A stretch of 64,000 nt of DNA. Source: Gemmatimonadaceae bacterium (GTDB taxonomy: Bacteria; Gemmatimonadota; Gemmatimonadetes; Gemmatimonadales; Gemmatimonadaceae). Below, in pieces: positions 34,977-64,000 of the stretch. The notes under the pieces are model-generated. The model searched no databases. It was not told where the DNA came from and saw only the letters and a list, made by a program, of their open reading frames with translations. Position numbers and translations under genes: made by a program. Position 1 is the stretch's first letter. Each line of letters starts with the position of its first letter. The stretch covers positions 248,001-312,000 of the forward strand of contig JABAQJ010000004.1 of NCBI GenBank assembly GCA_019186945.1, written 5' to 3'.

Positions 34977-35263
34977 GACCTCAACGTGCTGGAACGCGCT
35001 GTGCTGCTGTCTGCCGTGGACACGATTGGTGCGCGAGACCTGCATTTTTACGCGCTCGCGCCGTCCCCGGCAATGACACCCGCGTCGCAACGCTGGTCTG
35101 CGACGGTGCCGAGCGCCCTGGAGACCCCGGCCGTGCCGCTGGAGGCCTCGCAGCGCCAACACAACGTGCTGGCACTCGAGGCGACGGGCGGTAATGTTGA
35201 GGGGGCTGCGCAACTGGCGATACCGCTGTCCACGCTCTATCAGAAGATTAGGCAATGCAGATC
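34977..35263 (+). pseudogene. relic of an NtrC-family activator C-terminus (Fis-type HTH)
   Basis: In one + frame, LNVLERAVLLSAVDTIGARD matches the end of a sigma-54 AAA domain (normally RNVLERAVLLS). It is followed by PLEASQRQHNVLALEATGGN and AIPLSTLYQKIRQ, the typical Fis HTH of NtrC-type regulators. No receiver or ATPase domain precedes it and no plausible start is nearby; the upstream 100 bases are not homologous. The frame then runs on into unrelated sequence. I read this as a decayed or truncated copy. It occupies part of the 521-base gap between rlmI and the next gene. Confidence 0.75.
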
Positions 35264-35376: not shown

Positions 35377-35955
35377 ATGACAGCGCGTGGCAAAGGAACT
35401 CCGGTAGCTGGCGAAGACGCGAACGGCAATCCGCCGGGCATCGAAGGCGACTCCGGAAACGTGGACAAGATCCGCGACATACTCTTCGGCTCCAACATGC
35501 GGGACTACGACCGCCGCTTCGCCACGGTCGAGGAACGCCTGTTACGCGAGTCGGCGTCGTTGCGCGACGACATGGCCAATCGCCTCAGCACGGCCGAGCA
35601 ATTCTTCCGGACGGAACTCGAGGCGTTGAGCGCCAGCTTGCGAAACGAAGAGCGCGAACGAATGAAGGCGATGCGTGAGGCGATGGACGCACTCTCCGCA
35701 ATGAATCGCGATCTGTCCGATCGCATCACCGAACTGACCAGCCAGACGATGCAGCAGCATCGAGACGTCCGTGGCCAGCTGCAGGAGCAGCACCGCCTGC
35801 ATTCGGAGGACGTACAACGTCGGCACCAGGAGATCTCGGAAGCGCTCCATCGCGAGGCCTATGCGCTGCGTGACGCCAAGACAGACCGGACTGCGCTGGC
35901 CGCCATGTTCGCCGAGCTTGCTCAGCAGCTGACGGGCGACGCGGGTCGAACCTGA
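35377..35955 (+). CDS. coiled-coil protein of the small-GTPase island
   Basis: The 192-residue protein has a recognisable motif NVDKIRDILFGSNMRDYDRR (about residues 29-48) and then a long charged helix region (about 50-185), predicting a coiled coil. I know this motif from uncharacterised proteins encoded next to OmpA-like membrane proteins, but no function is established. No signal peptide or membrane helix is visible. The frame is open upstream; ATG 35377 gives the conserved N-terminus. The next gene begins 11 bases after its stop, so the two are probably one operon. Confidence 0.8.
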   Translation: MTARGKGTPVAGEDANGNPPGIEGDSGNVDKIRDILFGSNMRDYDRRFATVEERLLRESASLRDDMANRLSTAEQFFRTELEALSASLRNEERERMKAMREAMDALSAMNRDLSDRITELTSQTMQQHRDVRGQLQEQHRLHSEDVQRRHQEISEALHREAYALRDAKTDRTALAAMFAELAQQLTGDAGRT

Positions 35956-35966
35956 CGCCCGCTTCC

Positions 35967-37739
35967 GTGGCCGCGCCCATGCGGACGAACGACGGCGACA
36001 CCGACGGAATGAGCGGCGCCGACGCCCCAGATCCGGCTGCTACTCCCTCGCCTGACCGCGAGGTGCTGGCGCGCAGCCGCTGGCAGGAACTGCGATCCCT
36101 GCTCCTCGATCCGGAGCGGCGCCGTCTGCGAGCGGTGGAAGAAAAGATCGAGGATCCCGGCCTCTACGCGGATGCCGTCAGCCGAGTCCTTCCCGAGGCC
36201 ATTAGCCGACGGGGCGTAAAGGATCGCGAACTGACGACGGCGTTAGGCCCCGTCGTCGGCGAAGCCATCAAGGTCTCGATCAGGAAGAACCCGCAACCCC
36301 TGGTCGAGGCAATTTTTCCGATCATGGGCCCGGCGATCCGGCGGGCGATCGCAACGGCGCTGTCCGAGCTCACACAATCGCTGAACACGGCGCTCGAGTA
36401 CTCGCTCACGCCGCGCGGGGTTGCCTGGCGCATCGAGGCGGTACGCACAGGGAAGTCCTTCGGCGAGGTGGTACTCCGCCACTCGCTGGTGTACCGGGTG
36501 GAGCAATTGTTCGTAATTCATCCGGAGACCGGCCTCCTGATCGATCATGTTTCAGCGCCCGGCGTGCAACCGCTGTCGCCCGACATGGTCGCGGGAATGC
36601 TAACGGCAATCGTCGATTTCGCCCGGGACTCGTTCCATGTGTCGCAATCGGAAGGACTCGACTCGTTGGAGCTGGGAGAGCTGACGGTCTGGATCGAGCG
36701 TGGTCCGTTGGCGACGTTGGCATGCGTGATTCGCGGCCACGCACCGCTGAGTTACCGCCAGACGATGCAGGGGGCTGTCGAGGAACTCCATAGCGTCCAT
36801 GCGCCGGATATCGCGCAGTCGGCGGCCAGTGGACACAGCTTTGCGGTTCGTCCAGGGATCCTGGAACCGTGCCTGGTCGTAAAGCGGCAGGAGCGTGGCG
36901 GGTCGGGATCCTGGCGGCTGGCGGCACTAGTCGTCACCGTGCTGCTGGGCATCGGGTGGTTTGCCGCGACGCGAATCCTCGACGGCCGTCGCTTCGATCG
37001 CTACGTCGGCGCCCTCCGCGACGAACCCGGCATCGTCGTCGCAAACGCCGAACGAGCTGGCGGTCGCCTTATCCTTACGGGCCTTCGGGATCCGATCGCC
37101 CGTGATCCAGTCGCAATGCTCGAGGCGAACGGGCTGGACACGACGCGCGTGTCGGCGCACTGGGAGCCATACCTGGCTCTACGACCCGATTTCATCGCAC
37201 GGCGCGCCGCCGCCGCGTTGCAGCCACCGCCGGAGGTGCAGGTCGCGATGCGATCGGATACGCTTGTGCTCGGTGGCGTGGCACCGGCCTGGTGGCGCGC
37301 GCGAGCCATTGAGCTGGCGGCAACGCTGGCCGGCGTCAGCGCGGTAGACGCCGGGTCGCTCCGAGACTCGATCGACGTCGCGCTCACCACCATCGCCGAC
37401 CGGCTGAATGACGTCGTCATCACGTTCGGACCGGCCCAGACATCGCCCGACGCAGTTGGCGAACCACGTCTCGATTCGCTCGCGCGATCTGTGCGTCTCC
37501 TGTCTCGCGGTGCAGCCATCAACGGCCGCCAGGTCATGACAAGGGTGTACGGTTCGGCAGACTCGGTGGGTACCCGCGAGTTCAACGCCATCCTCCGCCT
37601 CGCTCGCGCCCGCACCATCCGGAGCCGCCTTGTTGCTGCCGGCCTGGATCCGCGAACCGTCACCACGGCCGCGGACAGCGGACGCGTAGCCCGCCGGGCC
37701 AGCGTCGTCATCACGGTACACCGCAGTCCAACTCCGTAG
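35967..37739 (+). CDS. membrane protein with BON-like and OmpA-like C-terminal domains
   Basis: The 590-residue protein starts with a cytoplasmic region of conserved type: LLLDPERRRLRAVEEKIEDP, VSRVLPEAISRRG, IRKNPQPLVEAIFPIMGPAI (residues about 45-120). One membrane helix lies near 313-333 (LAALVVTVLLGIGWFAATRI). After it come a BON-like part (IVVANAERAGGRLILTGL) and an OmpA-like end (VMTRVYGSADSVGTREFN, ARTIRSRLVAAGLDPRTV). The layout suggests an inner-membrane sensor reaching the periplasm or wall. ATG 35979 and 36009 are alternative starts. It sits between the coiled-coil and GTPase genes. Function unknown. Confidence 0.82.
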   Translation: MAAPMRTNDGDTDGMSGADAPDPAATPSPDREVLARSRWQELRSLLLDPERRRLRAVEEKIEDPGLYADAVSRVLPEAISRRGVKDRELTTALGPVVGEAIKVSIRKNPQPLVEAIFPIMGPAIRRAIATALSELTQSLNTALEYSLTPRGVAWRIEAVRTGKSFGEVVLRHSLVYRVEQLFVIHPETGLLIDHVSAPGVQPLSPDMVAGMLTAIVDFARDSFHVSQSEGLDSLELGELTVWIERGPLATLACVIRGHAPLSYRQTMQGAVEELHSVHAPDIAQSAASGHSFAVRPGILEPCLVVKRQERGGSGSWRLAALVVTVLLGIGWFAATRILDGRRFDRYVGALRDEPGIVVANAERAGGRLILTGLRDPIARDPVAMLEANGLDTTRVSAHWEPYLALRPDFIARRAAAALQPPPEVQVAMRSDTLVLGGVAPAWWRARAIELAATLAGVSAVDAGSLRDSIDVALTTIADRLNDVVITFGPAQTSPDAVGEPRLDSLARSVRLLSRGAAINGRQVMTRVYGSADSVGTREFNAILRLARARTIRSRLVAAGLDPRTVTTAADSGRVARRASVVITVHRSPTP

Positions 37740-37747
37740 GTGCGCTC

Positions 37748-38248
37748 GTGGAGACCCTGCATAGGAAGATCTGCTTGTTAGGCGCAATGGCCGTCGGCAA
37801 GACAAGCCTCGTGCGCCGCTTCGTGGAGGGCATGTTCTCCGAACGGTATCAAGCCACCATCGGCGTGAAGATCGACCGCAAGACCGTTGTATCCGGGAAC
37901 CGACAGGTGAACCTGGTCATCTGGGATCTGCAGGGCGATGACGACATCGAGCGCGTCCGCGCCTCCTACCTTCGCGGCGTCAGCGGACTGCTGATTGTGG
38001 CTGACGGCACACGGCCTGACACGCTGCAGACGGCGAGTCAGATCCGGGCCGACGCCGATCGCTCCGTGGGCCGCGTTCCCACGCTCCTGCTGCTCAACAA
38101 GTGCGACCTCCAGGACACTTGGCATGTCGACGATCGCGGTGCGACTCCTGACTGGAACGGACTGCACACGCTGCGAACTTCCGCCAGAACAGGCGAGAAC
38201 GTGGAGGAAGCGTTCTCTGCCCTCGTCGGTCGCATACTGACCGCATAA
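37748..38248 (+). CDS. Ras/Rab-like small GTPase
   Basis: The 166-residue protein is a single small G domain. G1 is GAMAVGKTS (residues 12-20, Lys18), the switch I Thr is Thr37 in YQATIGVK, G3 reads WDLQGDDD (residues 59-66) instead of WDTAGQE, G4 is NKCD (117-120) and G5 TSARTG (144-149). The residue matching Ras Gln61 is Asp, so intrinsic hydrolysis may differ. It resembles Rab/Rup-type prokaryotic GTPases rather than MglA. GTG 37748 is eight bases after the membrane-protein stop, giving a likely operon. Confidence 0.92.
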   Translation: METLHRKICLLGAMAVGKTSLVRRFVEGMFSERYQATIGVKIDRKTVVSGNRQVNLVIWDLQGDDDIERVRASYLRGVSGLLIVADGTRPDTLQTASQIRADADRSVGRVPTLLLLNKCDLQDTWHVDDRGATPDWNGLHTLRTSARTGENVEEAFSALVGRILTA

Positions 38249-38293
38249 CCGCCATTCCAGCTTCCAGACATCGGAAGACGGTACCGCATCCTT

Positions 38294-38329
38294 GCGGGGG
38301 TCGGCATCAGGTATTTCCTGACTCCCCGC
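38294..38329 (+). terminator. hairpin after the small GTPase gene
   Basis: GCGGGGG pairs with TCCCCGC and an inner TCAGG pairs with CCTGA around TATTT. No T-run follows, so it may be a weak or rho-dependent terminator, or an RNA-stabilising hairpin. Confidence 0.4.
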
Positions 38330-38425
38330 TGCGATGTCGTTAGTTACGCATGATGACGCGCTGCGCCGTTCACTGGCGCGAGTATTGCCTCCTCGCAATC
38401 GCTTCCCTACCTGCGGCTCCGCTAC

Positions 38426-38782
38426 ATGCCAATCGATGACGCGCGTGTGCTTGTGCTCGGCGAGGAAAACGGACGCATGTTCGCGCTTTGTTCGTATCTC
38501 GCGTTTCGCGGCTATCAGGTCGACCGCGCGCAAGAACTCGATGAGGCCGCCTCGCTGGTCCGCAACCTCCGCTACCGAAGCGTTATCGCTCGGCTCCAGG
38601 AATCGACCGATGGGAACGACTACCTCCAGTTGCTGCGTGAACTCAAGCAACGGGCGTTTGTGCATACGGTAGTGCTTCTCGATTCGCCCACCGGTCCTGT
38701 TCAGAATATCGACAGCGTGTTCGGCGCCGAGCACTCGATCGCGCTGATCGCTCGCTCCATCTGCCAGAGGCTGAGCGCCTGA
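38426..38782 (+). CDS. receiver-like protein lacking the phosphorylation Asp
   Basis: The 118-residue product looks like a CheY-type receiver fold: RVLVLGEENGRMFALCSYL, then an alternating helix/strand pattern, and SVIARLQES where a receiver normally carries the phospho-acceptor Asp (VxxDxxxP). The acidic pair of strand 1 is reduced to one or two Glu. It therefore should not be phosphorylated in the normal way. It follows the GTPase gene after a hairpin and may belong to the same island. The family assignment is tentative. Confidence 0.6.
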   Translation: MPIDDARVLVLGEENGRMFALCSYLAFRGYQVDRAQELDEAASLVRNLRYRSVIARLQESTDGNDYLQLLRELKQRAFVHTVVLLDSPTGPVQNIDSVFGAEHSIALIARSICQRLSA

Positions 38783-38909: not shown

Positions 38910-40829
38910 TCAGCGGTATAGTTGTGCGTTGAACTGTCCAGTGGCCAACGCGGCATCCACCCGCTTCGCAATCGTCTCCACCAGTCTCGTGTCGGTGCCT
39001 CGCTCCATCCAGACTCCGACATAGGTCTCGTCGGGATTACTCCCCTCGCCTTCGCTGCCGGAGAAACTGACGCTTACCGAGCGGCCGTCGATCAACACGT
39101 CTCGCGAAAAGTCGTCCTCTTTGCCCGGCGCAGGCTCCGCCTGGAACTCGGCGACCAGAAAGTCGATCAATGCGGTGCGCAGCGCTCGCTTGGCTCGGTA
39201 AATCCGGTACTCACGGAAATCGGGGTCGACCTGCAGATACCCGCGAGGCGGGAGCGGAACCGCATCGCGTCGTGCGACAAGGCTGTTTCCGCCACCCAAC
39301 TCCGGCCTCCACACGAAGTAGTGCGTGAGCCACGACGGATCGAGCGTCGCATACTCGTACGCGCCGAGATGCGTGTTCGTGATCGGCACGACCGACGTGG
39401 CCCCGGTCACTATGTCCCGAACGTACAGCACGTGGTCGTCGCCGTCGCCGCCATATCCTAGTCGCGCGAAGGTGCGCCCATCGGGAGACACGCCGAGCGG
39501 CGGAATATTCTCCAATACGCGCTGCGTTTCGTCGCGCGCCAGCTTGTGCACGGTGGAAGTCCGCGTATCGAGGACAGCGTCGCGAAAAAGAAACAAACCG
39601 GCAGCTGCAAATGTCGCTCGATCGAGGCGCCCTTCCGGCTCCGGCGGCGTGCTGGCCGGTGCAAAGTCGGCGGGATCCGACGTGAGCTGCTGCGCCCAGG
39701 GTGCGCTGGCACAGGAACTCACGTACTGCGTGACCAGCGTGTCGCCATCGTCCCGAAGCAGGTAACAGACCCCCTCCCCTGGAGCAGGGCCTACCTGCAC
39801 CAGGAGTGACGACTGAGCGCCTCCGAGAAGGGCCACTGCGTCGAACGCTTCGTATCGCGCGGATGCAGGCTGGCCACTGCCCGCCGCTTCACCCGCCGTG
39901 CGCTCGATTGTCACTGGCGTGTCGCGGAGTCGAATCGCGAATCGGGCGCGCGCCGAGTAGCGCGGCGATGCATTGCCATCTGCTACCTCGCTGAACGTTT
40001 GTGCGATCGTCGAAATCGTGAATGGACCGGCGCGTTCTACACGAATGGGCTGGTCGCTCGGCACGACGCGGAATCGGTATGACATCGCCTGTTGCTGACC
40101 GTCCCCCTTTGGGAGCCACTCGCTCCACTCGAGATGCTTCGCCTTCGGGTAGCCCGGGAGTGGAACCATGAAACCGGCCGGGACGATGCCAGGCGGTTCG
40201 ACACTGATCAGTCGCTGTCCACGACTGGTGAACACTTCGACGGCTCCCGGCACCACCCAACGCCCACTCTCCTGCCGTGCGTCCTCGCGCCACAATGGTC
40301 CCTTGGCGCTCGCGCGCGCTCTTCCGCCGCTTGCTGCACTCAGGCGCAGCCACCACTCACCAGTGTCCGCTGGCGCGGGGAGCATGCTGCCGATCGGCCA
40401 ACGCAGTTCCACAGCCAGAAGAAGCGTCTGACCGTTCAATTTCGGCGCCACGTCTGCGAGCAGGCGAGCGGCACCGCCAACGACCGCAACGGCACCGAGC
40501 GTGGCGAGCTGTCCGAAACCGAGGGCCTTGCCGAGACCCGGGCTCGGACCGGCAGCCACAACCCTGCTGGCAACGATGCCTGCCACGATTCCGACGACGA
40601 AGCCGAGGAGGGCCATGAGCACGACGAAGTAACCGGCCTCACCTTCGCGCGGCGAGAATGCGTACCAGTTGGCGGCCATGTTGGCGACCCAGCCGGCGGC
40701 GAGCAAGCCGACTGTGCCGCAGGCGAGTCCAGCGAGGGTTGATGACAGCCATGACATCGAGCGGTATTGTCGGAGGCTTGAGTACGGGCGTGCGACGCCG
40801 GGTGCGACGGCGCGCGGTAGGTCAGGCAC
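38910..40829 (-). CDS. hypothetical membrane protein with large periplasmic part
   Basis: I do not recognise this 639-residue protein. It has three membrane helices near the N-terminus (about residues 28-52, 66-88 and 104-123), then about 500 residues predicted outside the membrane. These include a stretch like a beta-propeller edge (LGVSPDGRTFARLGYGGDGD, LYVRDIVTGATSVVPI). GTG 40829 overlaps the stop of the upstream zinc-ribbon gene; the internal ATG at 40757 is an alternative start that puts the first helix at the terminus. Coupling suggests it works with the neighbour. Confidence 0.7.
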   Translation of the reverse strand: MPDLPRAVAPGVARPYSSLRQYRSMSWLSSTLAGLACGTVGLLAAGWVANMAANWYAFSPREGEAGYFVVLMALLGFVVGIVAGIVASRVVAAGPSPGLGKALGFGQLATLGAVAVVGGAARLLADVAPKLNGQTLLLAVELRWPIGSMLPAPADTGEWWLRLSAASGGRARASAKGPLWREDARQESGRWVVPGAVEVFTSRGQRLISVEPPGIVPAGFMVPLPGYPKAKHLEWSEWLPKGDGQQQAMSYRFRVVPSDQPIRVERAGPFTISTIAQTFSEVADGNASPRYSARARFAIRLRDTPVTIERTAGEAAGSGQPASARYEAFDAVALLGGAQSSLLVQVGPAPGEGVCYLLRDDGDTLVTQYVSSCASAPWAQQLTSDPADFAPASTPPEPEGRLDRATFAAAGLFLFRDAVLDTRTSTVHKLARDETQRVLENIPPLGVSPDGRTFARLGYGGDGDDHVLYVRDIVTGATSVVPITNTHLGAYEYATLDPSWLTHYFVWRPELGGGNSLVARRDAVPLPPRGYLQVDPDFREYRIYRAKRALRTALIDFLVAEFQAEPAPGKEDDFSRDVLIDGRSVSVSFSGSEGEGSNPDETYVGVWMERGTDTRLVETIAKRVDAALATGQFNAQLYR

Positions 40830-41892
40830 CTGCGTCGGCAGTGGGGAAGCTGGCGGCCGGAACGCCGCACGAGGGGCAATAACGGTAGAAGGCGTTCTTT
40901 CTCGTGGAGCACGCAGTGCAGTTGTCGAACAGCATCATCCCGCAATGCACGCAGAAGTTCGTACTGCTTTGCGGCCCGCCTCCTCCAGGAATTGGGCGCT
41001 CGCATCCGGGACAGAGATTGGCGTTCATTTTCTTGATCGCTTCTTCATCCCCAAGGGCTTGTCGTCGCTCCGATTCTGTCTGTCGTTCGACCACGCGGCG
41101 CTTCGCCAGGTAGCGCTGCATGGCTCGAATCAGGTAGTGGCCAACAACGGCTGTCAGTACGATGCCGACGGCATAGCGTACGTAACCGCCGTAGCTCGGC
41201 AGGTATGGGACGAGTTCGAAAAAGAACGCGAACAGGGCAAACAGGATGAAGCCACGCGCGAGCGGCCAGTATTGAGTCCGCCGCTTGCGCGTGAAGAGCC
41301 ACCAGGCGGCGATGAGCAGCGGCACCGTGAGTGCCAGGCGCATCCCGAAGGCCTTGAGTTCGGTCCGGAACACAGCACGCGAATAGGGGCCGGCGGCAGC
41401 GTCGGTGAGCGACCTGCGTTCCGCTTCGATAGCGGTGAGACGCTGCTGGAGTTCGAGCTGCCGAGTATCCAGGGCTTCGACCGCTGCCTGCGCGACGCGT
41501 TGCCGCGCCTGCATCGTATCGAGTTGGCGCGTTCGCCGCAGGATCTCCGGATCCTGGGCCGGGTCCGTCGTTGCCGTGCGCGTGGCGATCCAGTTGTCGA
41601 ACGCCTCCCGGCTGGAGTGGTAGACATTCGTGCTCGCTGTCAGTACCAGATCTGCCCGCTCGTGCTGGGACTGGACATCGACCTGTAGCAACTTGACGGA
41701 GTCATGAGCGGTGCTATTGCTGGCCAAGGCGCTGGAATCGACGAACTGCTCGAGCGTCAGGGGCCCATCGACTCCGGGAAGGTCAGCGACAATCTTCGCA
41801 CCCAGTCCGTTGAGGAAGCCTGCGAAGACCAGGGTAACGCCCCAGCCGGCGATCTGGAACAGCCGCTCGGGAGCACGAAGGCTCTTGAACAT
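40822..41892 (-). CDS. membrane protein with coiled coil and C-terminal zinc ribbons
   Basis: The 356-residue protein has a membrane helix near residues 11-30, a periplasmic helical region rich in Gln/Arg/Glu (about 95-175, likely coiled coil), three further membrane helices (about 183-265), and a cytoplasmic end with CxxC pairs CPGC, CVHC, CTAC and CPSC. These can make one double zinc ribbon. The frame is open upstream to 42009; I choose ATG 41892 because MFKSLRAPERLFQ directly precedes the first helix. Function is not known. It lies between fpg and the 639-residue membrane protein, all leftward. Confidence 0.72.
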   Translation of the reverse strand: MFKSLRAPERLFQIAGWGVTLVFAGFLNGLGAKIVADLPGVDGPLTLEQFVDSSALASNSTAHDSVKLLQVDVQSQHERADLVLTASTNVYHSSREAFDNWIATRTATTDPAQDPEILRRTRQLDTMQARQRVAQAAVEALDTRQLELQQRLTAIEAERRSLTDAAAGPYSRAVFRTELKAFGMRLALTVPLLIAAWWLFTRKRRTQYWPLARGFILFALFAFFFELVPYLPSYGGYVRYAVGIVLTAVVGHYLIRAMQRYLAKRRVVERQTESERRQALGDEEAIKKMNANLCPGCERPIPGGGGPQSSTNFCVHCGMMLFDNCTACSTRKNAFYRYCPSCGVPAASFPTADAGA

Positions 41893-42109
41893 GCGCTGGA
41901 TGACGTTGGGGGGAACGGGTCCGACCGTACTGGTTGCAGGTCGCTTCGCGCGCAAAGTATGTGACCGCCTGTCGCTGTCCGCAACGCGGCACGCGTCCCG
42001 GAGGGGCACGGCGACGCGCCGGAGGCCCGCCGAGGGTGTCGTCAGCCTCCACCCCCCGCTCCTTCACCTTGTGTCCTGATCAACTCGATGGCTCCCCGTG
42101 GAGCGCACC

Positions 42110-63273: not shown

Positions 63274-64000
63274 ATGCCCAGCGTCTTGATCGTCGACGAC
63301 GAGCCCAATATCCGGCGGATGGTTGGCGCACTGCTCGGAGCAGAGGGCTATGAGGTCCGCGAAGCGCCAGACGGCGCACGCGCGCTCTCCCTTGCCGTCG
63401 AGACGGACCCAGACGTCGCCCTGATCGACCTCATGATGCCCGGCGAGTTCGATGGCATGGCCGTACTGGGTGCGCTCCGAGAGCGTATCCCGGACCTGCC
63501 GGTGGTGATGATGAGCGGCCGTGCCGGTCTTGGCGACGCTGTACGCGCCACCAAACTGGGCGCCTATCATTTTCTCGAGAAGCCGCTCACGCCAGAGGGA
63601 GTCCTGCTGGCGCTGGCGGGTGCCATCGAACTGCGCCGCACCCGGCGCGAGATGCAGGCGCTCCGTGAAGACCTTGGTCTTGCCGGGGCCATGGTGGGCG
63701 AAAGCCTGGGCATGCGTCGCGTTAGGGACTTCATCGCACGTATCGGCCCGACGGATGCTAGGGTTCTGATCACCGGCGAGTCCGGGACGGGCAAGGAACT
63801 GGTGGCTGCGGCGATCCACAATGCCAGCACACGCCACGATCGCCCCTTCGTGCGAGTCAACTGCGCGGCCATCCCTCGCGATCTGCTGGAAAGCGAGATG
63901 TTCGGCCACGAGAAAGGAAGCTTCACCGGCGCAACCGAGCGCAGGATCGGTCGATTTGAGCTGGCGCATCGCGGAACCCTGCTGCTCGACGAGGTCGGAG
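63274..64000 (+). CDS. NtrC-family sigma-54 response regulator, cut by the window end
   Basis: The visible 242 residues contain a receiver ([12 protein letters not shown], phospho-Asp52 in [13 protein letters not shown], Lys in FLEKPLTP) and the start of a sigma-54 AAA domain with Walker A GESGTGKE and the interaction loop GSFTGA (usually GAFTGA). The C-terminus lies outside. ATG 63274 is used. It is likely the partner of the kinase at 60717. The Ser for Ala in GSFTGA is a mild change that should be tolerated. Confidence 0.93.

Follow-up and report, generated by a model that had tools for sequence, protein, structure and literature searches.

A Group 1 Rup-like locus of a Gemmatimonadaceae bacterium with a predicted longin/roadblock-fold domain in its membrane protein

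In the Group 1 Rup neighbourhood described by Wuichet and Sogaard-Andersen in 2014, a coiled-coil protein is encoded beside a protein that combines an unknown domain, a transmembrane (TM) segment and an OmpA end, and beside a small GTPase without the G3 Gln (PMC4316618). The N-terminal domain of the output enzyme has an invariant Gln, which was proposed to be supplied in trans; no Rup gene was counted as coupled to MglB, and by 2014 characterisation of a Group 1 member was still lacking (PMC4316618). Among prokaryotic GTPases, those of Group 1 are reported to come nearest to Rab/Ras/Rho/Ran of eukaryotes (PMC4316618, PMC4915359). In open-licence papers after 2014, only passing mention of Rup was found. 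The locus considered here is a four-gene island at positions 35377-38782 of a 64,000-nucleotide stretch (the window) of contig JABAQJ010000004.1 from a Gemmatimonadaceae bacterium. Its genes 1-3 match the Group 1 Rup core gene by gene, so the set is not new; what is new is a predicted longin/roadblock fold for the unexplained domain of the membrane protein. With a probability of roughly 0.6, the island is a reduced, lineage-specific Group 1 Rup system in which a longin platform tethered to peptidoglycan would set the state of the GTPase.

The Group 1 Rup core in the window and in its relatives

Four intact open reading frames (ORFs) are present on the + strand, separated by 11, 8 and 177 bases, which confirms the four-gene island of the original prediction, a model's reading of the letters alone, together with the tight spacing of genes 1-3. 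The first gene of the trio (35377-35955, +) encodes a cytoplasmic coiled-coil protein of 192 amino acids; almost every locus has a homologue of it 5' of the gene for the membrane protein. The second (35967-37739, +), with a GTG start that agrees with relatives, encodes a membrane protein of 590 amino acids comprising a helical N-terminus, the predicted longin/roadblock-fold domain, one TM segment, a periplasmic region and an OmpA-like C-terminus. The third, also starting with GTG, encodes a Rup-type Ras/Rab-like GTPase of 166 amino acids (37748-38248, +), and the fourth a lone, Asp-less receiver-like protein of 118 amino acids (38426-38782, +), with orthologues in the close clade only.

A scan of genome contigs yielded at least 572 confirmed stretches. 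The trio is adjacent in 80 of the 86 examined loci with enough flank; since the loci were found by the membrane protein, this fraction describes the neighbours of that gene and not the frequency of a solitary GTPase. By the survey for co-occurrence proposed with the original prediction, the refuting condition, homologues that do not occur together, fails for genes 1-3 and holds for gene 4, which is lineage-specific and confined to a small Gemmatimonadota group. Relatives were found in Gemmatimonadota, Acidobacteriota, Pseudomonadota, Cyanobacteriota, Thermodesulfobacteriota, Nitrospirota, Planctomycetota, Verrucomicrobiota, Bacteroidota and Calditrichota, close matches being Gemmatimonadaceae. 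The GTPase is absent from all 30 relatives searched, and a strong membrane-protein match is found in 16 of the 346 genomes of the phylum. This scattered distribution is compatible with loss or transfer. The earlier statement that no function is assigned stands, but genes 1-3 already carry the Group 1 Rup name (PMC4316618). A contig labelled as a Klebsiella pneumoniae metagenome-assembled genome (L059), probably misbinned or mislabelled, also carries a Rup locus, which falls with Acidobacteriota.

The assignment of gene 3 as a Ras-like GTPase holds. The protein matches Pfam Ras (PF00071) with an E-value of 3e-31, its top PDB matches are Rab proteins, and the G1, G3 Asp, G4 and G5 motifs are all present in a single domain of fewer than 240 amino acids. 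From motif reading and comparison with relatives, the G3 motif WDLQGD (37922-37939, +) has Asp at the Gln61 position. Among 88 related GTPases with a readable motif, this position is occupied by E (63), D (8), R (7), K (4), T (2), A (2), S (1) or Q (1). An acid is found in 71 of the 88, and the Asp is therefore a family trait, not peculiar to the window genome; the replacement of the catalytic Gln noted originally is present, but it is not special here. The G3 Asp of WD is kept, unlike in the MglA family, where it is replaced; in M. xanthus MglA, Thr takes its place.

A second Rup-like GTPase, 42% identical, is encoded elsewhere in the window genome (G000:C10:31873-32364; L002, L043). The next gene encodes a PP2C-type phosphatase, and no coiled-coil or membrane-protein gene lies nearby, the membrane protein being single-copy in this genome. 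At L034:4099-5132, tandem GTPase genes follow the membrane-protein gene with a 4-base overlap, and L051 and L083 also carry two.

In the membrane protein, one clear TM segment is observed at about residues 316-338 (36915-36980, +, for about residues 317-338), the peak hydropathy windows starting at residues 316-321. The OmpA-like peptidoglycan-binding region (37533-37673, +) is delimited by a match to PF00691 over residues 523-569 (E 7e-4). Its G-x-x-D and L-x-x-x-R positions align with solved OmpA/Pal domains (Acinetobacter Pal, Omp38), and D532 and R547 are invariant or nearly so among relatives. Regarding the initial description of an OmpA/BON-like membrane protein, the weakly matching OmpA-like end and the TM segment are retained, while a BON domain in the periplasmic part was rejected, neither Pfam nor NCBIfam giving a match. 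The rhizobial membrane protein (1021 amino acids; L044, L045) has about four periplasmic-module repeats before the OmpA-like end, as if the reach of the protein were variable.

The coiled-coil protein carries an N-terminal motif, DKIRDILFGSNMRDY (35464-35508, +), recognised by column conservation over 91 homologues. Residues R33, F37 and G38 of its IRDILFG stretch are 99-100% conserved, and a further conserved stretch lies near the C-terminus; this conservation suggests a putative fixed binding site.

Predicted fold of the cytoplasmic domain

The cytoplasmic domain of the membrane protein, at about residues 174-307 (36486-36887, +), is predicted by AlphaFold, Foldseek and VIA-align to adopt a longin/roadblock fold; of all the results, this one most deserves further work. 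The AlphaFold model of residues 34-325 (predicted local distance difference test, pLDDT, 78; predicted template modelling score, pTM, 0.50) displays a β-β-α-β-β-β-α order in its second half, and the model of residues 170-310 reaches a pTM of 0.81 and a pLDDT of 86; the two share overlapping alignments and are therefore not independent. Foldseek against the PDB gives 34 matches at E ≤0.001, with Mon1-Ccz1 first (3.9e-5) and with TRAPP, Ragulator, Fuzzy-Inturned and MglB (2.9e-4) also included. Each of the 50 VIA-align rows is a longin or roadblock protein, if adaptor and coat subunits of longin fold are included, with Z scores of 9.4-12.2. The VAMP7 longin is at the top (Z 12.2, 3.0 Å over 121), accompanied by Ykt6 (12.0) and TRAPP Trs23 (11.8); MglB aligns with Z 10.7 and 2.4 Å over 106 residues, and coverage of the domain is fuller for the longins than for MglB. 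No bacterial longin joined to OmpA was found in the open-licence literature, and the longin assignment may be noted elsewhere.

The fold bears on the comparison with MglA/MglB. In both cases a small GTPase would stand beside a protein of roadblock/longin fold, as far as the model of the island's partner goes. Unlike that system, the island GTPase has the G3 Asp and groups with Rab/Ras by similarity, and its fold partner forms one polypeptide with a TM segment and an OmpA-like end, with no sequence match to roadblock proteins. No stand-alone MglB (Robl_LC7, PF03259) lies by the island; the matches in the genome are on contigs C1 and C6, none being on C4, which carries the island. On this prediction, an MglB-like fold partner would be present, fused to the membrane protein, despite the absence of MglB couplings from the earlier count (PMC4316618). 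The original idea of a transmembrane signalling module resembling the MglA systems comes close, except for the different parts that it supposed: since the domain has the predicted fold of MglB and longins, the two systems may resemble each other in their parts more than was supposed. Polarity itself, the other role originally suggested, gains no support.

With the eukaryotic Rab-longin guanine nucleotide exchange factors (GEFs) Mon1-Ccz1, TRAPP and Fuzzy-Inturned, the island would share the pairing of a Rab-like GTPase with a longin-fold domain. In contrast to these, its longin-fold protein is bacterial and would be a single-pass membrane protein tied to peptidoglycan. The actinobacterial conservons (CvnA-D) likewise have a membrane signalling protein, a small GTPase and an MglB-fold protein in one operon, but the island unites the fold partner and the membrane anchor in one protein, and no histidine kinase (HK) is part of it in the window.

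Gene 4 and the local variant

The likeness to Group 1 Rup, which extends over the adjacent coiled coil, the TM/OmpA protein with its previously unexplained cytoplasmic domain and the GTPase without the G3 Gln, ends at the fourth gene. In 48 loci, the next gene encodes HATPase_c/HisKA (16/13), SpoIIE (10), HD (8), cyclase (5), PP2C (1) or sigma-54 activator (1) domains. Two kinds of N-terminal output domain are found, each with a nearly invariant Gln, in agreement with PMC4316618; on our own reading of the sequences, both appear PAS-like. Neither Gln-domain profile gave a match in the window genome, with a positive control of 6.5e-38 for the first and no control for the second. The first domain is also absent from the four sister genomes G166, G048, G104 and G057, and is found in the control genome G117. 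Because the Gln-bearing output enzyme is missing, with a lone Asp-less receiver-like protein behind a sigma-54-like promoter as gene 4, the window island is a Group 1 Rup variant and not a full member.

In other Gemmatimonadota (L037, L038, L039), a PP2C-type phosphatase gene lies beside the trio, either 3' of the GTPase or 5' of the coiled coil. In Variovorax (L057, L064, L074), RsbW-like or STAS-like genes, named by eye, lie directly 5' of the trio, and the output protein has a SpoIIE phosphatase; this arrangement suggests a partner-switching link.

In a quick tree, the window belongs to a clade of six Gemmatimonadaceae that has full support, and five of the six carry gene 4. As in the window, the gene after the GTPase in L028, L029, L031 and L047 encodes a lone receiver-like protein, and a related one is present in L034. 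The phospho-Asp position, located by eye, is R/C/A/G/G in the clade, and the Asp is kept in L034. The original label of an Asp-less receiver is thus supported as regards the replaced Asp, the receiver nature itself being recognised through weak matches; these matches are better in the orthologues (Response_reg, 1.4e-5 and 7e-4) than in the window protein.

A sigma-54 promoter-like site, TGGCGCGAGTATTGCC (38374-38389, +), is located 126 bases past the GTPase stop. A site with the sigma-54 GG/GC spacing precedes gene 4 in all five clade members that have this gene, at a distance of 126-154 bases from the GTPase stop in the cases measured; the score is at least 10 of 12 for four of the sites, and that of L028 is one short. 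The chance rate of such sites in shuffles is 0.08 per kb; the sites are inherited, and the five are therefore not five independent cases. A gene for the cognate factor, rpoN, is found in the window genome. The hairpin that was originally noted ahead of gene 4 does not stand out (z -1.4), the notable element there being the promoter-like site. As a terminator or riboswitch the hairpin is ruled out, given this z value, no T-tract terminator and no Rfam match.

The trio of L028 and L029 is preceded by genes for a PAS histidine kinase and an NtrC-type activator, and L031 has the NtrC; in these three loci, 4-33 bases separate the intact NtrC gene from the coiled-coil gene after it. Past gene 4, L028 has an EAL-like gene and L029 a gene of similar length. 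The window retains a remnant of an NtrC-type sigma-54 activator (34983-35252, +), detected by tblastn with the L031 NtrC (44% identity, E 8e-10). It consists of the C-terminal stretch with the Fis-like helix-turn-helix only (HTH_8, E 0.0026), the receiver and most of the AAA+ domain being missing. The kinase of the sister genomes has no close homologue in the window genome, where only generic kinases match (best 32% identity), and their EAL-like gene was not found in the window. A separate NtrC-type activator gene, 38-39% identical to the sister NtrC, occupies 63283-63999 and runs off the end of the window. Beyond the end of the island, two genes on the - strand (38910-42009) oppose it; they encode a 639-residue protein for which Pfam gives nothing convincing and a 395-residue protein with a C-terminal double zinc ribbon.

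Proposed mechanism and alternatives

In the preferred reading, the OmpA-like end would anchor the membrane protein on peptidoglycan and report on envelope status. The longin domain, probably dimeric, would bind the GTPase and set or read its nucleotide state, in the manner of MglB, Mon1-Ccz1 and TRAPP; from the modelled fold, GEF or GTPase-activating protein (GAP) activity may be inferred. The coiled coil would be an effector or adaptor acting through the invariant IRDILFG motif. The output would be directed in most bacteria to signalling enzymes of the HK, SpoIIE, HD or nucleotide cyclase type, and in the window clade to the Asp-less receiver. In the sister genomes, the neighbouring HK/NtrC pair would drive expression of the receiver gene via sigma-54.

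Several observations weigh against this reading. Pfam searches with 73 members of the cytoplasmic domain gave nothing consistent, only scattered chance matches, and hhalign of the domain against eight roadblock sequences was not significant (P 0.39); without a sequence-level link to roadblock proteins or to any Pfam family, the fold is assigned on predicted structure. A longin/roadblock fold is by itself not proof of GEF or GAP activity, and longins serve also as SNARE or coat parts. Furthermore, the PF00691 match scores under the Pfam gathering cut-off, the receiver identity of gene 4 is weak in the window protein (VpsR 0.0077), and the role given to this gene is based on position and on co-occurrence in five genomes.

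Many longins are not GEFs, and the domain could instead be a passive anchor or effector that recruits the GTP-bound GTPase to the envelope and exerts no nucleotide control, with a GAP elsewhere ending the signal. In most bacteria this GAP would be the Gln-bearing output domain, whose nearly invariant Gln was indeed proposed to act in trans (PMC4316618). However, the absence of that domain from the window genome leaves no supplier here, and MglB, of the same fold, regulates its GTPase, so that a purely passive role is considered unlikely. It is distinctly improbable that the island is a decaying leftover, not yet lost after deletion of the input pair and the output enzyme. The NtrC stump at 34983-35252, the lack of a close homologue of the kinase (best 32%), the absent EAL-like gene and a GTPase found in 0 of 30 relatives searched all point that way, but the four ORFs are intact, and the GTPase motifs, the OmpA Asp/Arg pair, the coiled-coil motif and the sigma-54-like site are retained. 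A small GTPase, a partner of predicted MglB-like fold and a receiver-like protein also recall MglA, MglB and RomR, as would befit a polarity or motility module in which the GTPase moves between poles. This appears very improbable for a fold partner anchored in the membrane and the wall; the outputs of relatives are HK, SpoIIE, HD and cyclase proteins, not motility genes, and none of the neighbours seen next to the trio is a gene for motility.

The reading of the island as a reduced Group 1 Rup system leads to a more tentative proposal, which we regard as possible but which has the odds somewhat against it: the trio may be a bacterial equivalent, tethered to peptidoglycan, of the Rab-longin GEF platforms of eukaryotes, one in which a longin domain within an envelope sensor regulates a GTPase of the Rab/Ras clade. 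Longins are thought to have descended from MglB-type domains (PMC3521125). The predicted longin/roadblock fold in the constant membrane partner names a likely regulator of the GTPase, by which the system becomes testable in vitro, and it bears on the origin of Rab-longin pairs. If the two are homologous, the pairing of a Rab-type GTPase with a longin would be older than eukaryotes.

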